Positions 1-5,464 of a stretch of 5,464 nt of DNA are shown piece after piece (positions within the stretch are counted from its first letter, which is position 1; every line of letters begins with the position of its first letter). The notes under the pieces are model-generated. The model was given only the letters and a program-made list of their open reading frames with translations, searched no databases and was not told where the DNA came from. The stretch is taken from contig JAPOHM010000104.1 of NCBI GenBank assembly GCA_029979405.1, positions 1-5,464 of the forward strand. The letters are read 5' to 3'. Both the position numbers and the translations under genes were made by a program. This stretch comes from Methanobacteriota archaeon (GTDB taxonomy: Archaea > Thermoplasmatota > Poseidoniia > Poseidoniales > Poseidoniaceae).

Positions 1-75
1 CTTGAGGGGCAAGCTGAGTCTTATGAGGATGTCTTCCTTCGTTCTGTCCAGAAGCGAAGATGGCGAGATTCTTAA
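1..75 (+). CDS. C-terminal fragment of a small protein, possibly a ribbon-helix-helix antitoxin-like protein
   Basis: Frame 1 is open from the left edge to a TAA at 73-75 and encodes 24 residues, LEGQAESYEDVFLRSVQKRR followed by WRDS. The block 'ESYEDVFLR' resembles the C-terminal helix of small archaeal VapB-type or ribbon-helix-helix antitoxin families, in which an 'xESYxDVIxRLL' pattern is common. That resemblance comes from memory of the family and covers very few residues. The start and most of the protein lie outside the window, and no toxin partner follows it on this strand. It could equally be the tail of an unrelated small protein, or a chance open frame. The charged, Arg-rich end is compatible with a soluble protein. 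Confidence 0.35.
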   Translation, partial: LEGQAESYEDVFLRSVQKRRWRDS

Positions 76-187
76 TCTGAAAATCATATCCATCTAAATG
101 CGTTATGAATGACTTGTAGCAGCTAATGTGTATCTTAACAGTAATCGTATAACGGTTGAGATTATACTCAAAAAGTTCACTGACTAA

Positions 188-196
188 TTTATAAAA
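188..196 (+). promoter_or_regulatory. Putative archaeal TATA box for a leaderless operon transcript
   Basis: TTTATAAAA lies in the 141-bp intergenic stretch 76-216, centred about 25 nt before the GTG at 217. That is the usual archaeal distance between TATA box and transcription start, so the transcript would begin at or very near the start codon. The only Shine-Dalgarno-like run, AAGGGG at 198-203, is 13 nt from the GTG, which is too far for normal use and fits a leaderless start. The rest of 76-216 shows no clear hairpin terminator, RNA gene or repeat. A TATACT at 163-168 could be read as a bacterial -10 box, but I see no partner -35 at the right spacing. Confidence 0.5.
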
Positions 197-216
197 AAAG
201 GGGTTTTACAAAAAAT

Positions 217-1296
217 GTGTCAGTAATTCTATTCCTTCAAGGCGATTTAACGACCATTGGGGGAATGGAAGAACATGGATGGGCAATGGTTGAATGGATG
301 GAGAAAAAAGGAATAGAGCATCATATTGTGAGGTTCAACACAAAACATAAGGGAGAACCTCGATTTCATGTGGAGGGTATGGGTTCGATGAGCCTAAGTG
401 AAATGAAAAAGAGACTCTATTGTAAGGTGTTATTTCACAACACTGGGCATTTGATAAACCAATTTGCGGATTTAAAACAAGCTTTTCCTGAATCAATTCA
501 AGTATATCGTACTGGAGGGAATGAAGTCCTCCAAGCCCGTCTTCAGAATGGATCCTTGAATCATTCTGAACGACAGAAGTTTTGGGTAAATTCAATCAAT
601 GAATCTATTGATGTTTTAGTAACCAATTCCGAATTTACTGAATGCAGATATGAGAATTTAGGCATCTCAAGAAAACTCTTTCATCGAGCGGTTGGAGGTA
701 CAAACCTTCCTCTACCAATTCAGAAACAGACAACTTCAGACGATGAATTGATACTTTTCTGCGCCGCTAGATTTGTCACCTACAAGAATCACTATACTTT
801 GATTGAACTTATGGATAAAATAATTCAAAATGGGTACAGAGCAAAGTTATACCTCGCAGGAGGGGGCTCGTTATTAGATAATGTCAAATCCCAAGTGGAA
901 TCTTTAGGCTTGAGCAACCATGTTGTTTTTCTCGGTGAAATCACTCCCAAGGAGGTGACGAAATTCCTTACCAAAACCGACGTTTACATTCAATTGAGCA
1001 TTGAGGAAAATAGAGCAGTAGATTGCGGGTCTTACATACATACTGAAGGAATGGGGCGTTCAGTCCTTGCAGCAATTAGTTCAGCCACCTGGATCATCGC
1101 TGGAAATGCAGGTGCCTTGCCTGAGATTGTGCATGGAGCCAGAGGGGTTATTGTAAATCCACTTAGTTCAGATGACGCTATGCAAGCCCTAATTCAATGG
1201 TTAGGAAATGGTTGCCCAAGACCTGAACAAACAGAACAATACTCATGGGATAATTATTTTGAAAAGTATTTGGCATTTATTGAGGTGAAGTCTTGA
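217..1296 (+). CDS. GT4-family glycosyltransferase (GT-B fold)
   Basis: This 359-residue protein is a typical length for GT4 enzymes, which transfer a sugar from a nucleotide-sugar donor. The N-terminal Rossmann half carries the glycine-rich acceptor-side motif GGMEEH at residues 15-20. The linker ends with GGTNLP at 160-165. The C-terminal donor-binding half begins near 177 with 'LILFCAARFVTYKNH', then GGGS (215-218), 'VVFLGEI' (236-242), and EGMGRSVLA (277-285) followed by 'GNAGALPEIV' (296-305). The first Glu of the EX7E signature is present (E277), but the second is Ala (A285), a departure from the consensus that may affect donor binding or activity. No signal peptide or membrane segment is seen, so it is probably cytosolic. 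The start is GTG; an ATG two bases earlier opens only a three-codon frame. It is first in a four-gene operon and its TGA overlaps the next gene's TTG. The substrate is unknown; the fold assignment is firm. Confidence 0.9.
   Translation: MSVILFLQGDLTTIGGMEEHGWAMVEWMEKKGIEHHIVRFNTKHKGEPRFHVEGMGSMSLSEMKKRLYCKVLFHNTGHLINQFADLKQAFPESIQVYRTGGNEVLQARLQNGSLNHSERQKFWVNSINESIDVLVTNSEFTECRYENLGISRKLFHRAVGGTNLPLPIQKQTTSDDELILFCAARFVTYKNHYTLIELMDKIIQNGYRAKLYLAGGGSLLDNVKSQVESLGLSNHVVFLGEITPKEVTKFLTKTDVYIQLSIEENRAVDCGSYIHTEGMGRSVLAAISSATWIIAGNAGALPEIVHGARGVIVNPLSSDDAMQALIQWLGNGCPRPEQTEQYSWDNYFEKYLAFIEVKS
1282..1288 (+). promoter_or_regulatory. Shine-Dalgarno site supporting the TTG start at 1293
   Basis: GAGGTGA sits four bases before TTG 1293. 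It supports the non-standard TTG start, which overlaps the TGA of the upstream gene in the form TTGA. The start also places the conserved hydrophobic strand NILVV immediately at the N terminus, as expected for a GT-B Rossmann fold. Confidence 0.6.
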
Positions 1297-2114
1297 ATAT
1301 CCTCGTAGTTACTGAGAAACAACATGTTTCCGATAATCAAAGAGACGGGGGAGCACGTGTAATTGAAATGTTAACCTCAATTGAATCTGTAGAAGTGAAA
1401 ATTCTTGATTTCTCAGTACATGCAGATGTTTCCAAATCTTCATCTCTGGTTTATCCATTCCATGATGATTGTAGATTTGAACGTAGATTATTGAATAAGG
1501 AATTCATTTCTGAGACAGTTAGGAAACACTTGCCATGGTCTGATGTCGTGATTTTTGTTCATTGCTCAATGATGTTTGGCTGTGGTCATGATGATTTTAT
1601 TGATGTTAGGTCTGTCTTATTCCCAATGTTCACTTCAGCATCGTATTTGCAATCAGGTGAAATTGTACCCGAATCATATGTCGAAGAGGAAAATAGAATT
1701 TTACAACTTGTTGACAAAATAATCACGCCAAGTAACTTAGAGAAAAAAATGATGCTGGATATAGGAATACAAGAACAAAAAATCGCCGTTATTTCACGAG
1801 GTGTTCAGGCAAATGCAAAACATTTGATTAGAAAAATTAAAGCTGACGAGACACTTAATTGTGTTTGTTTAGGCTCAATTAAACCTCAAAAAAATCCAAT
1901 AGAGACCCTGCTGATTTTCGAAAAGATTGCGAAAGAAAGACCAAACTCTACGCTTACATTTATTGGACCAATTCAATGCAGGAATACACACGCAGATCTG
2001 ATGTCTGCAATTCGAGAAAGCGAATTCTCTAACTCGATTTCCATCAAAAAACCTGTACTTCACAATGATTTGAACAAGATTCTGAGAGAATATCATGTTC
2101 ATATCTCCACATAA
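1293..2114 (+). CDS. Glycosyltransferase, GT4-type, truncated before its EX7E motif
   Basis: This 273-residue piece starts at TTG in an overlap with the preceding gene. It holds the N-terminal Rossmann domain with the acceptor-side glycine motif DGGARVIEML at residues 18-27, a second strand near 84-90 (DVVIFVH), and the inter-domain marker 'DKIITPSNLEKKMM' at 141-154. The donor domain begins 'NCVCLGSIKPQKNPIETLL' at 189-207 and continues with 'LTFIGPI' at 221-227, ending at HVHIST just before TAA. GT4 proteins need about 80-100 more residues after this point, including the donor-contacting EX7E block, which is encoded in frame beyond the stop. As it stands the product would lack the donor site and is expected to be inactive or unstable unless the stop is read through. 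No membrane segments are seen. The GT assignment is firm; the donor and acceptor are not predictable. Confidence 0.75.
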   Translation: MNILVVTEKQHVSDNQRDGGARVIEMLTSIESVEVKILDFSVHADVSKSSSLVYPFHDDCRFERRLLNKEFISETVRKHLPWSDVVIFVHCSMMFGCGHDDFIDVRSVLFPMFTSASYLQSGEIVPESYVEEENRILQLVDKIITPSNLEKKMMLDIGIQEQKIAVISRGVQANAKHLIRKIKADETLNCVCLGSIKPQKNPIETLLIFEKIAKERPNSTLTFIGPIQCRNTHADLMSAIRESEFSNSISIKKPVLHNDLNKILREYHVHIST

Positions 2115-2153
2115 AAGTGTGAGACATTTGGTCGAGCGATTATTGAAACATCT

Positions 2154-2921
2154 GTGATGGGGATTCCAAATATTATGAGCCGATCATTCAATGCGGCAGC
2201 TGCACTCTTAGAACATAGGGTAGGTGCCCATGTAATCAACGATATTGCTGAATTTGATGCAGCCAAATGGCTAAACGAAATTAGCCTTGAAACTAAATCT
2301 CTCTCGCTTATTGGTCTAAGCGACATTTTTGACATAGACATTGAACGAAGAAGGGTTCTTGCATCAATAACAGAAGATTATACAACCGTTGTAACGGATT
2401 TTGATGGTACGATATTCCACAAATCATCACCTAAACTTACGAGGGAATGGGTCTCTAAGATCTCAAAATTTGATTATGTAATTCTTTGTTCTGCGAGAGG
2501 ATTAGATTCATTGACGGCACTTTCCAATAAAATTGGTTTGCATTGGGACGCTATTGTGTCTTATTCCGGAGCATTACTGACCCTCAATGGAGGAGATAAT
2601 CAAGTTATTTCTGAGATGAAATCATTACCCAATGGATGCAGTGAAATCAGATTCGAACAGCACCTTCTGCAAGCTAAATTTGAACTCAATAATGCTGTGT
2701 TTTCCGATGAATTCCGTAAAGAATCTTATTCTGGCAAAGGGTACCTGCTTCCGTGGAAAACTACCAAATTAAGAGGGGCAATGCTAGCAATCTCCCATTT
2801 TCCAAAAGTGGGAAGAGTTGTTGCTTTCGGCGATGGAAAGCATGACATCCCAATGATTCAGTTTTTCGGGGGTAAAGTTGTAACAGACGGCCTGCCAGCA
2901 AACAACGAGGGGGCAAATTAA
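2154..2921 (+). CDS. HAD-superfamily (IIB-type) phosphatase domain with the remnant C-terminal end of a GT4 glycosyltransferase
   Basis: The 255-residue open frame called from GTG 2154 contains two parts. Residues 1-60 (MGIPNIMSR ... GAHVIND) are the tail of the glycosyltransferase encoded upstream in the same frame. Residues 76-255 are a HAD phosphatase: motif I DFDGT at 82-86 (nucleophile D82, acid/base D84), motif II Ser at 113 in LCSARG, a C2-type cap between about 136 and 200, motif III Lys near 202-205, and motif IV GDGKHD at 226-231. This order fits Cof/sucrose-phosphatase-like HAD-IIB enzymes that remove phosphate from sugar phosphates. I see no Shine-Dalgarno sequence before GTG 2154 or ATG 2157, so this is probably not a true independent start; the frame is open back to 2115. 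As a part of the fusion it could dephosphorylate the product of the glycosyltransferase, which is an inference. Its TAA overlaps the next ATG by one base. Confidence 0.75.
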   Translation: MMGIPNIMSRSFNAAAALLEHRVGAHVINDIAEFDAAKWLNEISLETKSLSLIGLSDIFDIDIERRRVLASITEDYTTVVTDFDGTIFHKSSPKLTREWVSKISKFDYVILCSARGLDSLTALSNKIGLHWDAIVSYSGALLTLNGGDNQVISEMKSLPNGCSEIRFEQHLLQAKFELNNAVFSDEFRKESYSGKGYLLPWKTTKLRGAMLAISHFPKVGRVVAFGDGKHDIPMIQFFGGKVVTDGLPANNEGAN

Positions 2922-3844
2922 TGGATAGATACAAAGGCTACTACATGATTACTTCAAGGTGCAACCTTGACTGTGATTACTGTGTTCTGGAGGATTCTCC
3001 TGACCAAATTGCATCTGAATTAGATCTTTTTTCAAAATTAAACCTAATTGATCATCTCTACAATGCGCTTGGCTTTCGAAGAATTACTTTCTCGGGCGGC
3101 GAAGTGTTGGTCGCCGGCGGAAAACCACGCCAGCAATTTATTCAAATTCTAAATCACCTCAAAACATACAAAGGTAAAGGTCATGAAGATAATCTAGAAG
3201 TTCGAATGTATACGAATGCTTTACTTCTTAATGATGAAGTGGCTGACGCAATGATCGGTGTTGTAGATTTGGTAGCCATTAACATTGATTCTTCAGATGG
3301 AGCCCAATTAGAAAATTTTGGTCGTAAAGGGAGACTGGGGTCGACATATCTCGAGAGAGTGGTAGAAGTAATGCACATGTTAGCAGAACGTGGCATACCA
3401 TTGAAAATTCATTCAGTAGTTGGTAAACTCAATCACACAACGCTTCCTGAACAAATTCTTTCAATTTGGAAATCGGTAGAAAAGTCAGGAGTTGAAGTTA
3501 AAAAGTGGAAATTTTATCAGTATATGTCTTATGATGACCCAGAAAGAGATCAACGGCATACTATTACCTTGGAGGAATTTGAAAACTTTATTTCCAAAGT
3601 TGAGAACACGAAGATACCGAGGGAAGTGAATTGCCACTTCAAATCGAATCAGGAAATGGATGACTCTTTGTTTAATATTTTACATTATGGAAATGCCCAA
3701 TATCGTTTAGAGGGTGATACCTGGACAACCACACGCCGTACGCTCGATTTGCGGGAATATTCCTCCATGAACGAATTATTTGAGAAAACTGGAATCGACC
3801 GAGAGATTTTCAACAAACACCATTTACTGGAGCCATTATCATGA
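2921..3844 (+). CDS. Viperin-like radical SAM enzyme
   Basis: This 307-residue protein carries the 4Fe-4S motif CNLDCDYC (C14, C18, C21) and the SAM-binding 'RRITFSGGE' at 53-61, so it is a radical SAM protein. Further blocks match those I recall from human viperin: 'AINIDSSD' (119-126; viperin AISCDSFD), 'FGRKG' (133-137; IGRGQG), 'LKIHSVVGKLN' (161-171; FKINSVINRFN), 'KKWKFYQ' (194-200; VRWKVFQ), 'SNQEMDDSL' (242-250; SNQKMKDSY) and 'TGIDREIFNK' (290-299; SGFDEKMFLK). The order and length also fit. Viperins use SAM to convert nucleoside triphosphates into 3'-deoxy-3',4'-didehydro chain terminators, and prokaryotic versions act against phage. Whether this one uses an NTP is unknown; an Asn of the viperin KINSV block is His164 here. 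No SPASM-type extra Cys cluster or membrane helix is seen. GAGGGGG at 2907-2913 is a good ribosome site. It overlaps both neighbours, implying coupled translation with sugar-active enzymes. Confidence 0.85.
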   Translation: MDRYKGYYMITSRCNLDCDYCVLEDSPDQIASELDLFSKLNLIDHLYNALGFRRITFSGGEVLVAGGKPRQQFIQILNHLKTYKGKGHEDNLEVRMYTNALLLNDEVADAMIGVVDLVAINIDSSDGAQLENFGRKGRLGSTYLERVVEVMHMLAERGIPLKIHSVVGKLNHTTLPEQILSIWKSVEKSGVEVKKWKFYQYMSYDDPERDQRHTITLEEFENFISKVENTKIPREVNCHFKSNQEMDDSLFNILHYGNAQYRLEGDTWTTTRRTLDLREYSSMNELFEKTGIDREIFNKHHLLEPLS

Positions 3845-4563
3845 CATGTCGGATTTTCGTGACAATTGACTTAGATTGGGCTTCTGAAGTAGTAATTGAG
3901 GAGACGATGAATTGGTTTTCTCAATTCAAGATTCCAGTTACCGTTTTTGCGACGCACGAGTCGAGGGCAATAGTTGAACGAATGAACAGGATTGAAGTCG
4001 GTTTACACCCCTATTTTTCTCCGGACTCGAGTCAGGGCTCGAATTCAGAAGAAATCATTGAGAATTTATCGAAAATAACAACAAATATTCCAGTGTATCG
4101 CTCTCACCGTTTTCTGGATTCGAATCAAATAAGGGAGCATATGGCGAGGATGGGTATGAGAGCGAGCTCAAATGTATGCACCGATTTGGATCCTATAGCG
4201 CCATTTAGGCATCGTTCTAGAATGTTAGAGATACCTATCGCATTTGAAGATGGTAACTTTTTGGAGCGGAAATATAATTTAGACAGTTGTGATGAAATTG
4301 TGCAATTGATTTCTCAGAGTGAAATCTTTGTTATTGCAATACATCCAATGCACTTCGTGCTCAATACTCCTCATTACCAGTGGATGAGAGACATAAAAGA
4401 CTCAACTACACGAATACGTTGGAACAATATGACATGTGACGAAGTGACTGAACTACGTTACTCTGGAAGGGGCATTGCTTCTTTTGTGAAGCAATTATTA
4501 ATGACAATTGAGAAATGTGGGCACAAGTTTGAACAATTTAGTTCATTAATTTTGGACGTCTAA
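3841..4563 (+). CDS. NodB/CE4 polysaccharide-deacetylase-like protein (WbmS-like)
   Basis: This 240-residue protein begins with 'IFVTIDLDWASEVVIEE', a motif I strand with D10 and D12, followed by 'IPVTVFATHES' (31-41), 'IEVGLHPYFSP' (51-61, H56), 'PVYRSHRF' (84-91) and 'FVIAIHPMHFVLN' (163-175, H168). This order is that of the NodB-like (beta/alpha)7 barrel, and the HPxF and HPMHxxLN blocks recall the WbmS-like subgroup found in O-antigen and surface-glycan clusters. Classical CE4 enzymes bind metal through an Asp and an HxxxH pair. Here the second His of that pair is missing, so the metal site differs, with H89 or H168 as possible substitutes (inference). Deacetylation of an N-acetylated sugar is the family expectation, not a demonstrated role. 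There is no signal peptide, pointing to action on a cytosolic intermediate. GGAG at 3829-3832 precedes the ATG, which overlaps the previous stop as ATGA. Confidence 0.75.
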   Translation: MTCRIFVTIDLDWASEVVIEETMNWFSQFKIPVTVFATHESRAIVERMNRIEVGLHPYFSPDSSQGSNSEEIIENLSKITTNIPVYRSHRFLDSNQIREHMARMGMRASSNVCTDLDPIAPFRHRSRMLEIPIAFEDGNFLERKYNLDSCDEIVQLISQSEIFVIAIHPMHFVLNTPHYQWMRDIKDSTTRIRWNNMTCDEVTELRYSGRGIASFVKQLLMTIEKCGHKFEQFSSLILDV

Positions 4564-5220
4564 TTTCCATAAACTCCCTTCTTTCTTTGCTAAAATGACT
4601 GTTGATATCTGCTCAGTGTTTAGACAAATATCGATATCAGTGATAGGATATTCATCTGAATTGATAGAGAAGCGTGTTGAACTCTCCGTATTTCGTAATT
4701 CTTGGACGTAAGTTTCAATGTAACCTATTGGGTCTTCAGAAATTAATGCTTTTGCACATACATTATCCTCTTTGACTGGTGTGATTCCCTGATGACCGGC
4801 AGCAACAATATCCCATCTTCCTCCCAATTTGTCCATGAATACTTTTGTTGCCTTAAGGTTCGAGATGCTGCAAAGCAACACAATTTTTGGATCAAACAAA
4901 CCATCGAGGCAACCGCCACAGCCTGCAGTTCTGTGGATAATGCTCTGTCCACACAAATCAATCTCAGAAACACGAGTTGGAGAGTTGGGGGCATCATAAT
5001 TTACATTTGAACCCATGAATGGCTTTCCTATACGGATAAAATCTGGTTTCGAAGAACGGACATTATTTTCATCTGAGGTCATGTAATAGATTGAAGGCTT
5101 CTGCTCCAAGATTGCAATCGCTGTAGGTACTGCTCTAAAAACATCGATAATTACTACGTTTTGTCCTGCGTTCTTCGCACCAGTTTGTCCATGAGAGATA
5201 CTCTCATTTATCGGTGCCAT
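4546..5220 (-). CDS. ComB-like protein (2-phosphosulfolactate phosphatase family)
   Basis: The 224-residue product is close to the usual length of ComB, a Mg-dependent phosphatase that removes phosphate from 2-phosphosulfolactate in coenzyme M and sulfolactate synthesis. Family blocks seen in order: 'NVVIIDVFRAVPTAIAIL' (21-38, D26 and R29), an 'IGKPFMG ... DAPNSP' stretch (64-81) matching the family's GE-x-GG ... GNSP region, 'SIIHRTAGCGG' (93-103) for the usual TTxNGT turn, and 'EDNVCAKALI' (151-160) for the ED-x-x-CA motif. The TAGCGG turn with two nearby Cys (C101, C104) departs from the consensus, so the substrate may differ. The ATG is fixed by AGGAGGAG five bases upstream and by an in-frame stop just before that. 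The 3' end overlaps the facing deacetylase-like gene by 18 bp. The RNA methyltransferase gene lies upstream on the same strand, 88 bp away, so co-transcription is possible. Confidence 0.65.
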   Translation of the reverse strand: MAPINESISHGQTGAKNAGQNVVIIDVFRAVPTAIAILEQKPSIYYMTSDENNVRSSKPDFIRIGKPFMGSNVNYDAPNSPTRVSEIDLCGQSIIHRTAGCGGCLDGLFDPKIVLLCSISNLKATKVFMDKLGGRWDIVAAGHQGITPVKEDNVCAKALISEDPIGYIETYVQELRNTESSTRFSINSDEYPITDIDICLNTEQISTVILAKKEGSLWKLDVQN

Positions 5221-5225
5221 AATTT

Positions 5226-5233
5226 CTCCTCCT
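5226..5233 (-). promoter_or_regulatory. Strong Shine-Dalgarno site for the ComB-like gene
   Basis: On the minus strand AGGAGGAG lies five bases before ATG 5220. It fixes the start of the ComB-like gene and shows that this genome uses Shine-Dalgarno initiation in addition to the probable leaderless start at 217. The 88-bp gap 5221-5308 otherwise holds no clear terminator hairpin or convincing promoter. Confidence 0.75.
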
Positions 5234-5308
5234 GTAAATTCTTTATCAAGTTTGTATGACGGATATTGTTTTCAAACATCCTAGCTCAGCAATAAGAGAA
5301 CTCTGCCC

Positions 5309-5464
5309 CTAGGTACCATTTCTTTGCCGCAACGCCTCAACAGCAAGAACACTGATTGCAACCTGGAGGTTGTACGATGGAACAAACCCATCCATCGGTA
5401 GTCGAACAATTTCATCGCATGCATCGAGCACTTCTTTCGAGACACCATCTCGTTCAGCTCCGAC
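5309..5464 (-). CDS. C-terminal part of a SpoU/TrmH-family RNA 2'-O-methyltransferase
   Basis: The minus-strand frame is open from the right edge to a TAG at 5311-5309 and gives 51 residues. It contains VGAERDGVS, matching SpoU motif 2 (GxExxG), and 'RLPMDGFVPSYNLQVAISV', matching motif 3 (IPMxGxxxSLNVSVA). It ends with EALRQRNGT, where the RQR tail is common in TrmH-type tRNA methyltransferases. These motifs form the knotted SAM-binding site of SPOUT enzymes, which methylate a ribose 2'-OH in tRNA or rRNA. The N-terminal part, including motif 1, lies beyond the window, so the target RNA cannot be deduced. It appears to be a housekeeping gene that marks the edge of the accessory segment. Confidence 0.88.
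   Translation of the reverse strand, partial: VGAERDGVSKEVLDACDEIVRLPMDGFVPSYNLQVAISVLAVEALRQRNGT

Follow-up and report, generated by a model that had tools for sequence, protein, structure and literature searches.

The window analysed in this study is a stretch of 5,464 nucleotides from a Methanobacteriota archaeon (contig JAPOHM010000104.1 of assembly GCA_029979405.1, positions 1 to 5,464 of the forward strand). The gene in question, here called RS, encodes a radical S-adenosylmethionine (SAM) enzyme for which viperin is the nearest named family by profile and fold. The gene and its cluster motif lie as follows:

2921..3844, + strand: viperin-fold radical SAM protein (RS), 307 amino acids; open reading frame (ORF), profile and fold matches
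2960..2983, + strand: CX3CX2C cluster motif (Cys14, Cys18, Cys21); read from the sequence, invariant in 25 of 25 rows of alignment A1

Relation of RS to viperins

The RS reading frame is intact and opens with ATG. The CX3CX2C motif pointed out in the initial annotation of this DNA was present at residues 14, 18 and 21, and the protein matched the Pfam family Radical_SAM with an E-value of 4.6e-15. A search with viperin models, advised in the same annotation, gave the prokaryotic viperin NF038283 as the top NCBIfam model at 92.9 bits, but its curated cut-off of 180 was not reached. The second model, MoaA, scored 55.8 bits against a curated cut-off of 284, which was likewise not reached, and the best SPASM peptide maturase model (best 25 of 65 models) fell far short with 49.9 bits against 625. 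The PADLOC matches of RS were three viperin models only (95.1, 89.3 and 33.8 bits). The predicted fold was that of viperin over the full length, with viperin ranking above SuiB, SkfB, MoaA, BlsE and DesII. Comparison of family profiles by hhalign gave an E-value of 1.7e-23 over 227 columns with viperins, spanning blocks 1 to 5 of those described below and not the sixth, as compared with 1.7e-19 (176 columns) for MoaA-like rows and 3.6e-17 (196 columns) for SPASM-like rows, both labels being our own.

The six blocks in which a likeness to viperin had been recognised (IDSSD, FGRKG, KIHSVVGKLN, WKFYQ, SNQEMDDS and GIDREIF) were all found in the translation, in viperin order. In a MAFFT alignment of the RS family with bacterial viperins, where block positions were judged from 6 of 38 rows, they stand in order opposite viperin DS/DA, IGR, K(I/L/V)NTVV, WKVL(Q/R), (E/D)(S/N)N..M..S and F...F, the sixth being a weak match, and the alignment reaches the C-terminus. 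The motifs WK..[QR] and N..M..S were found together in 22 of the 24 rows of the family, in 11 of the 14 of viperins and in none of the 21 of other radical SAM proteins; since the pair is absent from the last group, the likeness of the blocks is above chance.

A generic radical SAM enzyme, whether peptide-modifying or not, with a superficial likeness to viperin would be consistent with the MoaA-like profile similarity close behind that to viperin (1.7e-19 versus 1.7e-23), with the source annotation of one relative (P0035) as an AlbA-type bacteriocin maturase, and with trees that do not join the RS family to viperin. The ranking of viperin over the five other folds, the extension of the viperin alignment to the C-terminus and SPASM-family scores far under their cut-offs nevertheless make this most improbable.

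Two trees were calculated. The first comprised 59 rows: 24 of the RS family (the window, 15 of the 120 listed relatives described below, and eight loci), 14 of viperins (from 124, all bacterial, with no eukaryotic or archaeal viperins) and 21 of other radical SAM proteins (from 29 other loci, of which three were without ORF and five were left out). The second comprised 50 rows, after removal of eight long-branch outgroup rows and the divergent L039. Both gave warnings of long branches meeting, and in the first the bootstrap had not converged. The RS family formed its own clade in both trees (support 99/99 in the first and 100/98 in the second), and the 14 bacterial viperins formed a separate clade without RS (99/100 and 96/95). 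MoaA-like rows formed a branch of their own in both, RS not being among them. The tree placement proposed earlier as a check therefore gave a divided answer, as RS lies outside the sampled viperin clade, yet not within the MoaA-like or SPASM-like rows.

Full-length RS family members in the genomes of 18 relatives scored about 80–106 bits against NF038283. One of these genomes, a Rhodocyclaceae metagenome-assembled genome (MAG; G014, loci L020 and L038), holds a viperin of 342.7 bits together with an RS family protein of 87 bits, which suggests that the two have different roles. Among 398 genomes of the phylum to which this MAG belongs, 4 passed the viperin cut-off; among 247 of the phylum of G015, none did. 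Viperin L040 shares its contig with a second match to viperin (G088:C15:9495-9899), which is partial and contains a stop.

Active-site signature of the RS family

Motifs were counted in the closest 120 of 304 RS relatives (E <= 1e-5; the 120 are 47–95% identical, mostly about 50%) and in the closest 120 of 1378 matches to one gammaproteobacterial viperin, a viperin set made narrow by this single query. Counts of relatives and viperins below refer to these listed proteins. Three positions distinguish the two sets:

3410..3412, + strand: His164 codon, Asn in viperins (KxH versus KxN); motif counts
3641..3643, + strand: Lys241 codon, Glu or Asp in viperins; K in 120 of 120 relatives, E/D in 118 of 120 viperins
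3668..3670, + strand: Leu250 codon, the conserved Tyr of N..M..SY in viperins; motif counts and alignments

Both CX3CX2C and GGE were present in all 120 relatives. These conserved elements are those of 5′-deoxyadenosyl radical formation, as established for the radical SAM superfamily, and RS therefore should make this radical. The extended form GGEP was found in none of the relatives and in all 120 viperins; in the tree set it occurred in one of 24 family rows and in 19 of 21 other radical SAM rows, so that loss of the proline is specific to the RS family. K[ILMV]H[ST]V[VI] was present in 118 relatives and no viperin, K[ILMV]N[ST]V[VI] in no relative and all 120 viperins. Likewise, K.[NS]..M..S occurred in all relatives and no viperin, and [ED].N..M..S in no relative and 118 viperins. 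At the following position, N..M..SL was found in 119 relatives and no viperin, N..M..SY in no relative and 118 viperins; N..M..S itself is missing from P0103 and L039 in the 24-row family set. WK..[QR] was common to all relatives and 76 viperins, 44 being without it. The preceding residue was K in all 76 of these viperins, and in the relatives C (46), K (39), S (11), A (10), R (6), Y (5), T (2) or Q (1). Relative to viperins, the RS family has additional stretches of 3–5 residues flanking WK..Q on both sides, and a loose C-terminal [RK]Y pattern occurred in 11 relatives versus 118 viperins.

The tyrosine of N..M..SY is presumably the conserved, catalytic tyrosine of viperin. Residue roles in viperin were drawn in part from PMC9642334, PMC10732462 and PMC8124187; PMC9642334 and PMC8124187 describe transfer of a proton and an electron from a conserved tyrosine and state no residue number, and a search by residue number turned up no paper. 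With leucine in this place, some other donor would be required for the reduction that concludes the viperin reaction, or the reaction would end differently. The family retains the lysines of KxH and WK, and Lys241 is constant, which would fit a phosphate-bearing substrate.

The RS family thus carries a changed active-site signature relative to viperin. By score cut-off, clade placement and this signature RS is not a viperin but a member of a separate family of radical SAM enzymes with the viperin fold. The description of the protein as viperin-like holds for profile and fold, in which viperin is nearest, and does not extend to membership, in view of the position outside the sampled viperin clade, a score of about half the cut-off and the replacement of Tyr by Leu.

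The conserved gene unit and its distribution

The neighbours of RS in the window are the following:

217..1296, + strand: GT4 glycosyltransferase (GTa), 359 amino acids; Glycos_transf_1, E 5.4e-26
1293..2921, + strand: GT4-HAD-IIB fusion gene (GTb); ORFs 1293-2114 and 2154-2921, split by TAA
3841..4563, + strand: WbmS-like polysaccharide deacetylase (DAC), 240 amino acids; PF22537, E 6.8e-29
4546..5220, − strand: 2-phosphosulfolactate phosphatase (ComB)-like protein; PF04029, E 1.4e-13

Pfam and ORF scanning recovered the two GT4 enzymes, the HAD domain and the deacetylase-like protein named in the initial annotation, and enlarged the list in two respects: the second GT4 and the HAD domain are one gene, broken by TAA, and the ComB-like gene at 4546–5220 (−) belongs to the unit. 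The start of DAC overlaps the end of RS by 4 bases, and its PF22537 score of 101.6 bits is above the gathering score of 27. The ComB-like gene is convergent with DAC and overlaps its 3′ end. The GTa family profile matched the phosphatidylinositol monomannoside mannosyltransferase 3okc/3okp (E 7.8e-26) and also the N-acetyl-glucosaminyl L-malate synthase 5d00 (E 5.8e-11); that of GTb matched the GT4 enzyme 7mi0 in the PDB. The DAC profile matched WbmS 3hft (E 1.4e-21), deposited as involved in O-antigen biosynthesis, and the ComB-like profile matched 2-phosphosulfolactate phosphatases in the PDB. The segment 5311-5464 (−), reading VGAERDGVSKEVLDACDEIVRLPMDG..., is presumably the C-terminus of a SpoU/TrmH-type RNA methyltransferase.

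The GTb gene is interrupted in the window by an in-frame TAA at 2112–2114, just ahead of a block which we take to be of the EX7E type; in all 15 other variant A loci (below) GT4-HAD is a single open frame of 541–616 amino acids. Recoding of this TAA is unlikely because TAA also terminates other ORFs of the window. Either a nonsense change or an error of assembly may account for the stop, and the local pathway may be broken.

Nineteen loci were obtained from a scan of GTDB species genomes, and their neighbours were grouped by ORF clustering. In variant A (15 loci and the window) GT4, GT4-HAD fusion, RS and deacetylase are followed by the convergent ComB-like gene, and the last two ORFs overlap tail to tail in all 14 loci that reach that far, as they do in the window; the 3-kb contig of L010 covers only GT4-HAD, RS and a portion of the deacetylase. 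Variant B (L013, L016, L017 and L019) consists of RS, HAD_2, deacetylase, a separate HAD-IIB, GT4 and GT4, with WecB after the GT4 pair in the three loci whose contig reaches that far. HAD_2 precedes RS in L017, and GTb is without fused HAD in all four loci. The ComB-like gene was not seen in the variant B loci, and HAD_2 may stand in for this phosphatase there, as judged from the domains of L013, the only one scanned.

A WecB homologue was found in 13 of the 19 loci, immediately upstream of GTa in eight of variant A, and it passed the equivalog cut-off in both loci scanned. WecC was found in nine of the 19, one being a partial fused frame and two being cut at contig ends. Pairwise distances of the five variant A genes correlated (r 0.49–0.84, p 0.001–0.028; 14 loci), as expected if the five genes travel together. 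The neighbours of RS form a conserved unit, often accompanied by genes for uridine diphosphate (UDP)-linked N-acetylmannosamine or its uronic acid, UDP-ManNAc(A).

By title, 12 of the 19 loci belong to Chlamydiota, Holosporales, Rickettsiales, Caedibacter and Francisellaceae, which we take to be intracellular or symbiotic groups; the other seven are from Thiomargarita, Rhodocyclaceae, a Rhizobium-labelled MAG, an unplaced gammaproteobacterium, Chitinophagaceae, Clostridia and Pacearchaeota. A MAG is stated in 16 titles. At E <= 1e-40, RS was present in 6 of 232 genomes of the phylum of a Chlamydiota seed, 1 of 289 of the class of the Paracaedibacter genome and 1 of 10 of the order of the Caedibacter genome, all of these being loci already among the 19. 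The RS tree intermixes phyla and is poorly resolved, with one of 15 inner branches starred. Given this rarity and mixture of phyla, the cluster is accessory and was probably spread by transfer.

Several loci have peculiarities of their own. L013 (Thiomargarita) and L016 (a Chitinophagaceae MAG) hold near-alike variant B clusters on short branches, by transfer or binning error. L007 carries the title Rhizobium sp. Q54, a doubtful label given that its genome measures only about 1.1 Mb. A Clostridia MAG (L017/L039) has a divergent RS copy (35% identity), without N..M..S, in a variant B cluster.

Pattern-based scans confirmed no RS relatives in viral contigs. Two phage and 15 plasmid records matched RS solely within residues 2–181, at 26–33% identity, as partial, generic radical SAM matches, and a viral origin of RS was rejected on these grounds. 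Outside the shared families, the 19 loci contain 118 ORFs of at least 120 amino acids. Among them PADLOC recognised AbiEi and AbiEii (two members each) and PDC candidate models (one each) in the best 25 of 84 families, and Pfam recognised transposase and integrase families (two members each) beside housekeeping genes in the best 25 of 140. These flanks neither make a clear defence island nor rule one out. No nucleotide kinase was found among the six ORFs of the window or the representative loci scanned; such a neighbour occurs with some prokaryotic viperins only and is no necessary feature.

The initial annotation had offered a defence gene in a new setting as one role. RS would then be a divergent, genuine antiviral viperin whose 3′-deoxy-3′,4′-didehydro (ddh) nucleotide poisons phage polymerases, the sugar genes being incidental or modifying its product. 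Viperin models as the only PADLOC matches, the viperin fold, the retained lysines of KxH and WK, and the AbiE genes, transposases and integrases of the flanks are consistent with such a role. It is nevertheless quite unlikely: RS reaches about half of the curated viperin cut-off and falls outside the sampled viperin clade, Tyr is replaced by Leu in 119 of the 120 relatives, and a genome with a 342.7-bit viperin also carries an RS family gene. The lack of a kinase in the ORFs scanned, the merely partial phage and plasmid matches without a relative in viral contigs, and constant partners of glycan type argue in the same direction.

Proposed role and comparison with known systems

Our preferred reading, which we regard as moderately probable, places the RS family in a dedicated biosynthetic unit, where its radical chemistry would act on a sugar intermediate, either phosphorylated or nucleotide-linked, of a small ManNAc(A) glycoside; the enzyme would not be a stand-alone maker of antiviral ddh-nucleoside triphosphates. 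Direct support exists for the predicted fold, the distinct family, the changed active-site signature, the conserved unit, the correlated gene divergence and the sugar-donor genes in most loci. The earlier suggestion that a relative of viperin was taken over for modifying a nucleotide-sugar or glycan is thus the better of the two roles originally offered; the glycan-type partners agree with it, while we infer the chemistry, that is, every reaction, the reaction order, the substrates and the product of the route given here.

By analogy, the partners (supply of ManNAc or ManNAcA, two glycosyltransferases, two phosphatases and de-N-acetylation) would point to a small aminosugar glycoside built on a phosphorylated acceptor. 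WecB, with WecC where present, would convert UDP-GlcNAc into UDP-ManNAc or UDP-ManNAcA, and the two GT4 enzymes would assemble a small glycoside on the acceptor, whose phosphate would be taken off by the HAD-IIB domain fused to the second GT4. The WbmS-like hydrolase would strip an N-acetyl group. RS would direct the 5′-deoxyadenosyl radical at the phosphorylated or nucleotide-linked sugar intermediate, most likely for dehydration or another rearrangement of a diol. A further phosphate would be removed by the ComB-like phosphatase (HAD_2 in variant B), and an MsbA-like ABC protein may export the product.

Several observations weigh against this reading. Neither tree settles whether the RS family and viperins are sisters, and the second groups SPASM-like rows with viperins (78/33). 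The structure model of RS is of low confidence at residues 14–23 and 60–67, and the lysine of KxH is not special, as MoaA likewise has KxN there in the alignment. Six of the 19 loci showed no WecB, among them the long L011 (14.8 kb) and L015 (20.9 kb). In L007 and L008 the gene is found beyond the opposite end of the unit and shares just 31–34% identity with the L003 copy, and neither WecB nor WecC is within the 5,464-nucleotide window. An ABC gene more than 30% identical to the MsbA-like one of L003 lies near the unit in 7 of the 19 loci.

The unit could also be a cluster for an envelope polysaccharide or glycolipid of the cell surface, such as O-antigen or capsule, with RS modifying a sugar of an envelope glycan and no free small molecule being made. 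WecB/WecC, the GT4 pair, the WbmS-like deacetylase and the MsbA-like ABC protein of some loci would suit such a cluster, as would the resemblance of the GTa profile to a lipid-linked mannosyltransferase. We consider it rather unlikely, however, as the unit has two glycosyltransferases only, and the shared families, of which representatives only were scanned, contained no recognisable flippase, polymerase, priming transferase or ligase. In addition, the HAD-GT4 fusion suggests a soluble phosphorylated acceptor, by analogy with sucrose-phosphate synthase/phosphatase.

Returning to the small-glycoside reading, a bolder and very doubtful version is that the viperin-fold enzyme of protist-dwelling bacteria makes a didehydro or rearranged sugar or nucleoside which is mannosaminuronate-glycosylated, deacetylated and exported; a symbiont would then secrete a viperin-type, drug-like molecule into its protist host.

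No paper describing the RS cluster was found in searches of an open-licence library, and a description is possible elsewhere, for example in surveys of prokaryotic viperins. The unit has the look of a biosynthetic cluster not yet described, whose probable task is to make a small sugar compound and not to fight viruses directly. If so, viperin-type chemistry would reach beyond antiviral nucleotides and the fold would have a second branch with a re-tooled active site. The RS family would then be a natural comparison for the role of the viperin tyrosine and C-terminus, and sub-threshold matches to viperin models could be biosynthetic enzymes.

With viperin (SAND, RSAD2) and the prokaryotic viperins (NF038283, PADLOC pVip), RS shares the fold, CX3CX2C and GGE. 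The RS family differs from them in its own clade, a score of about half the cut-off and glycan-type partners, and in the changes of Tyr to Leu, KxN to KxH, GGEP to GGE without P, and Glu/Asp to Lys. Cytosylglucuronate decarboxylase BlsE and DesII, which we take to be radical SAM enzymes whose substrates are sugars or nucleoside-sugars, would be of the same kind as the role proposed for RS; BlsE was among its sequence matches at E 0.0066, and both were among its fold matches. The mycothiol/bacillithiol, aminoglycoside and tunicamycin-type pathways use a toolkit of GT4, phosphatase and deacetylase to make small aminosugar products, and to our knowledge a viperin-fold enzyme and a ComB-like gene are not part of them. 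This toolkit resembles that of the RS unit, and the GTa profile matches 5d00, the likeness seen being one of toolkit.
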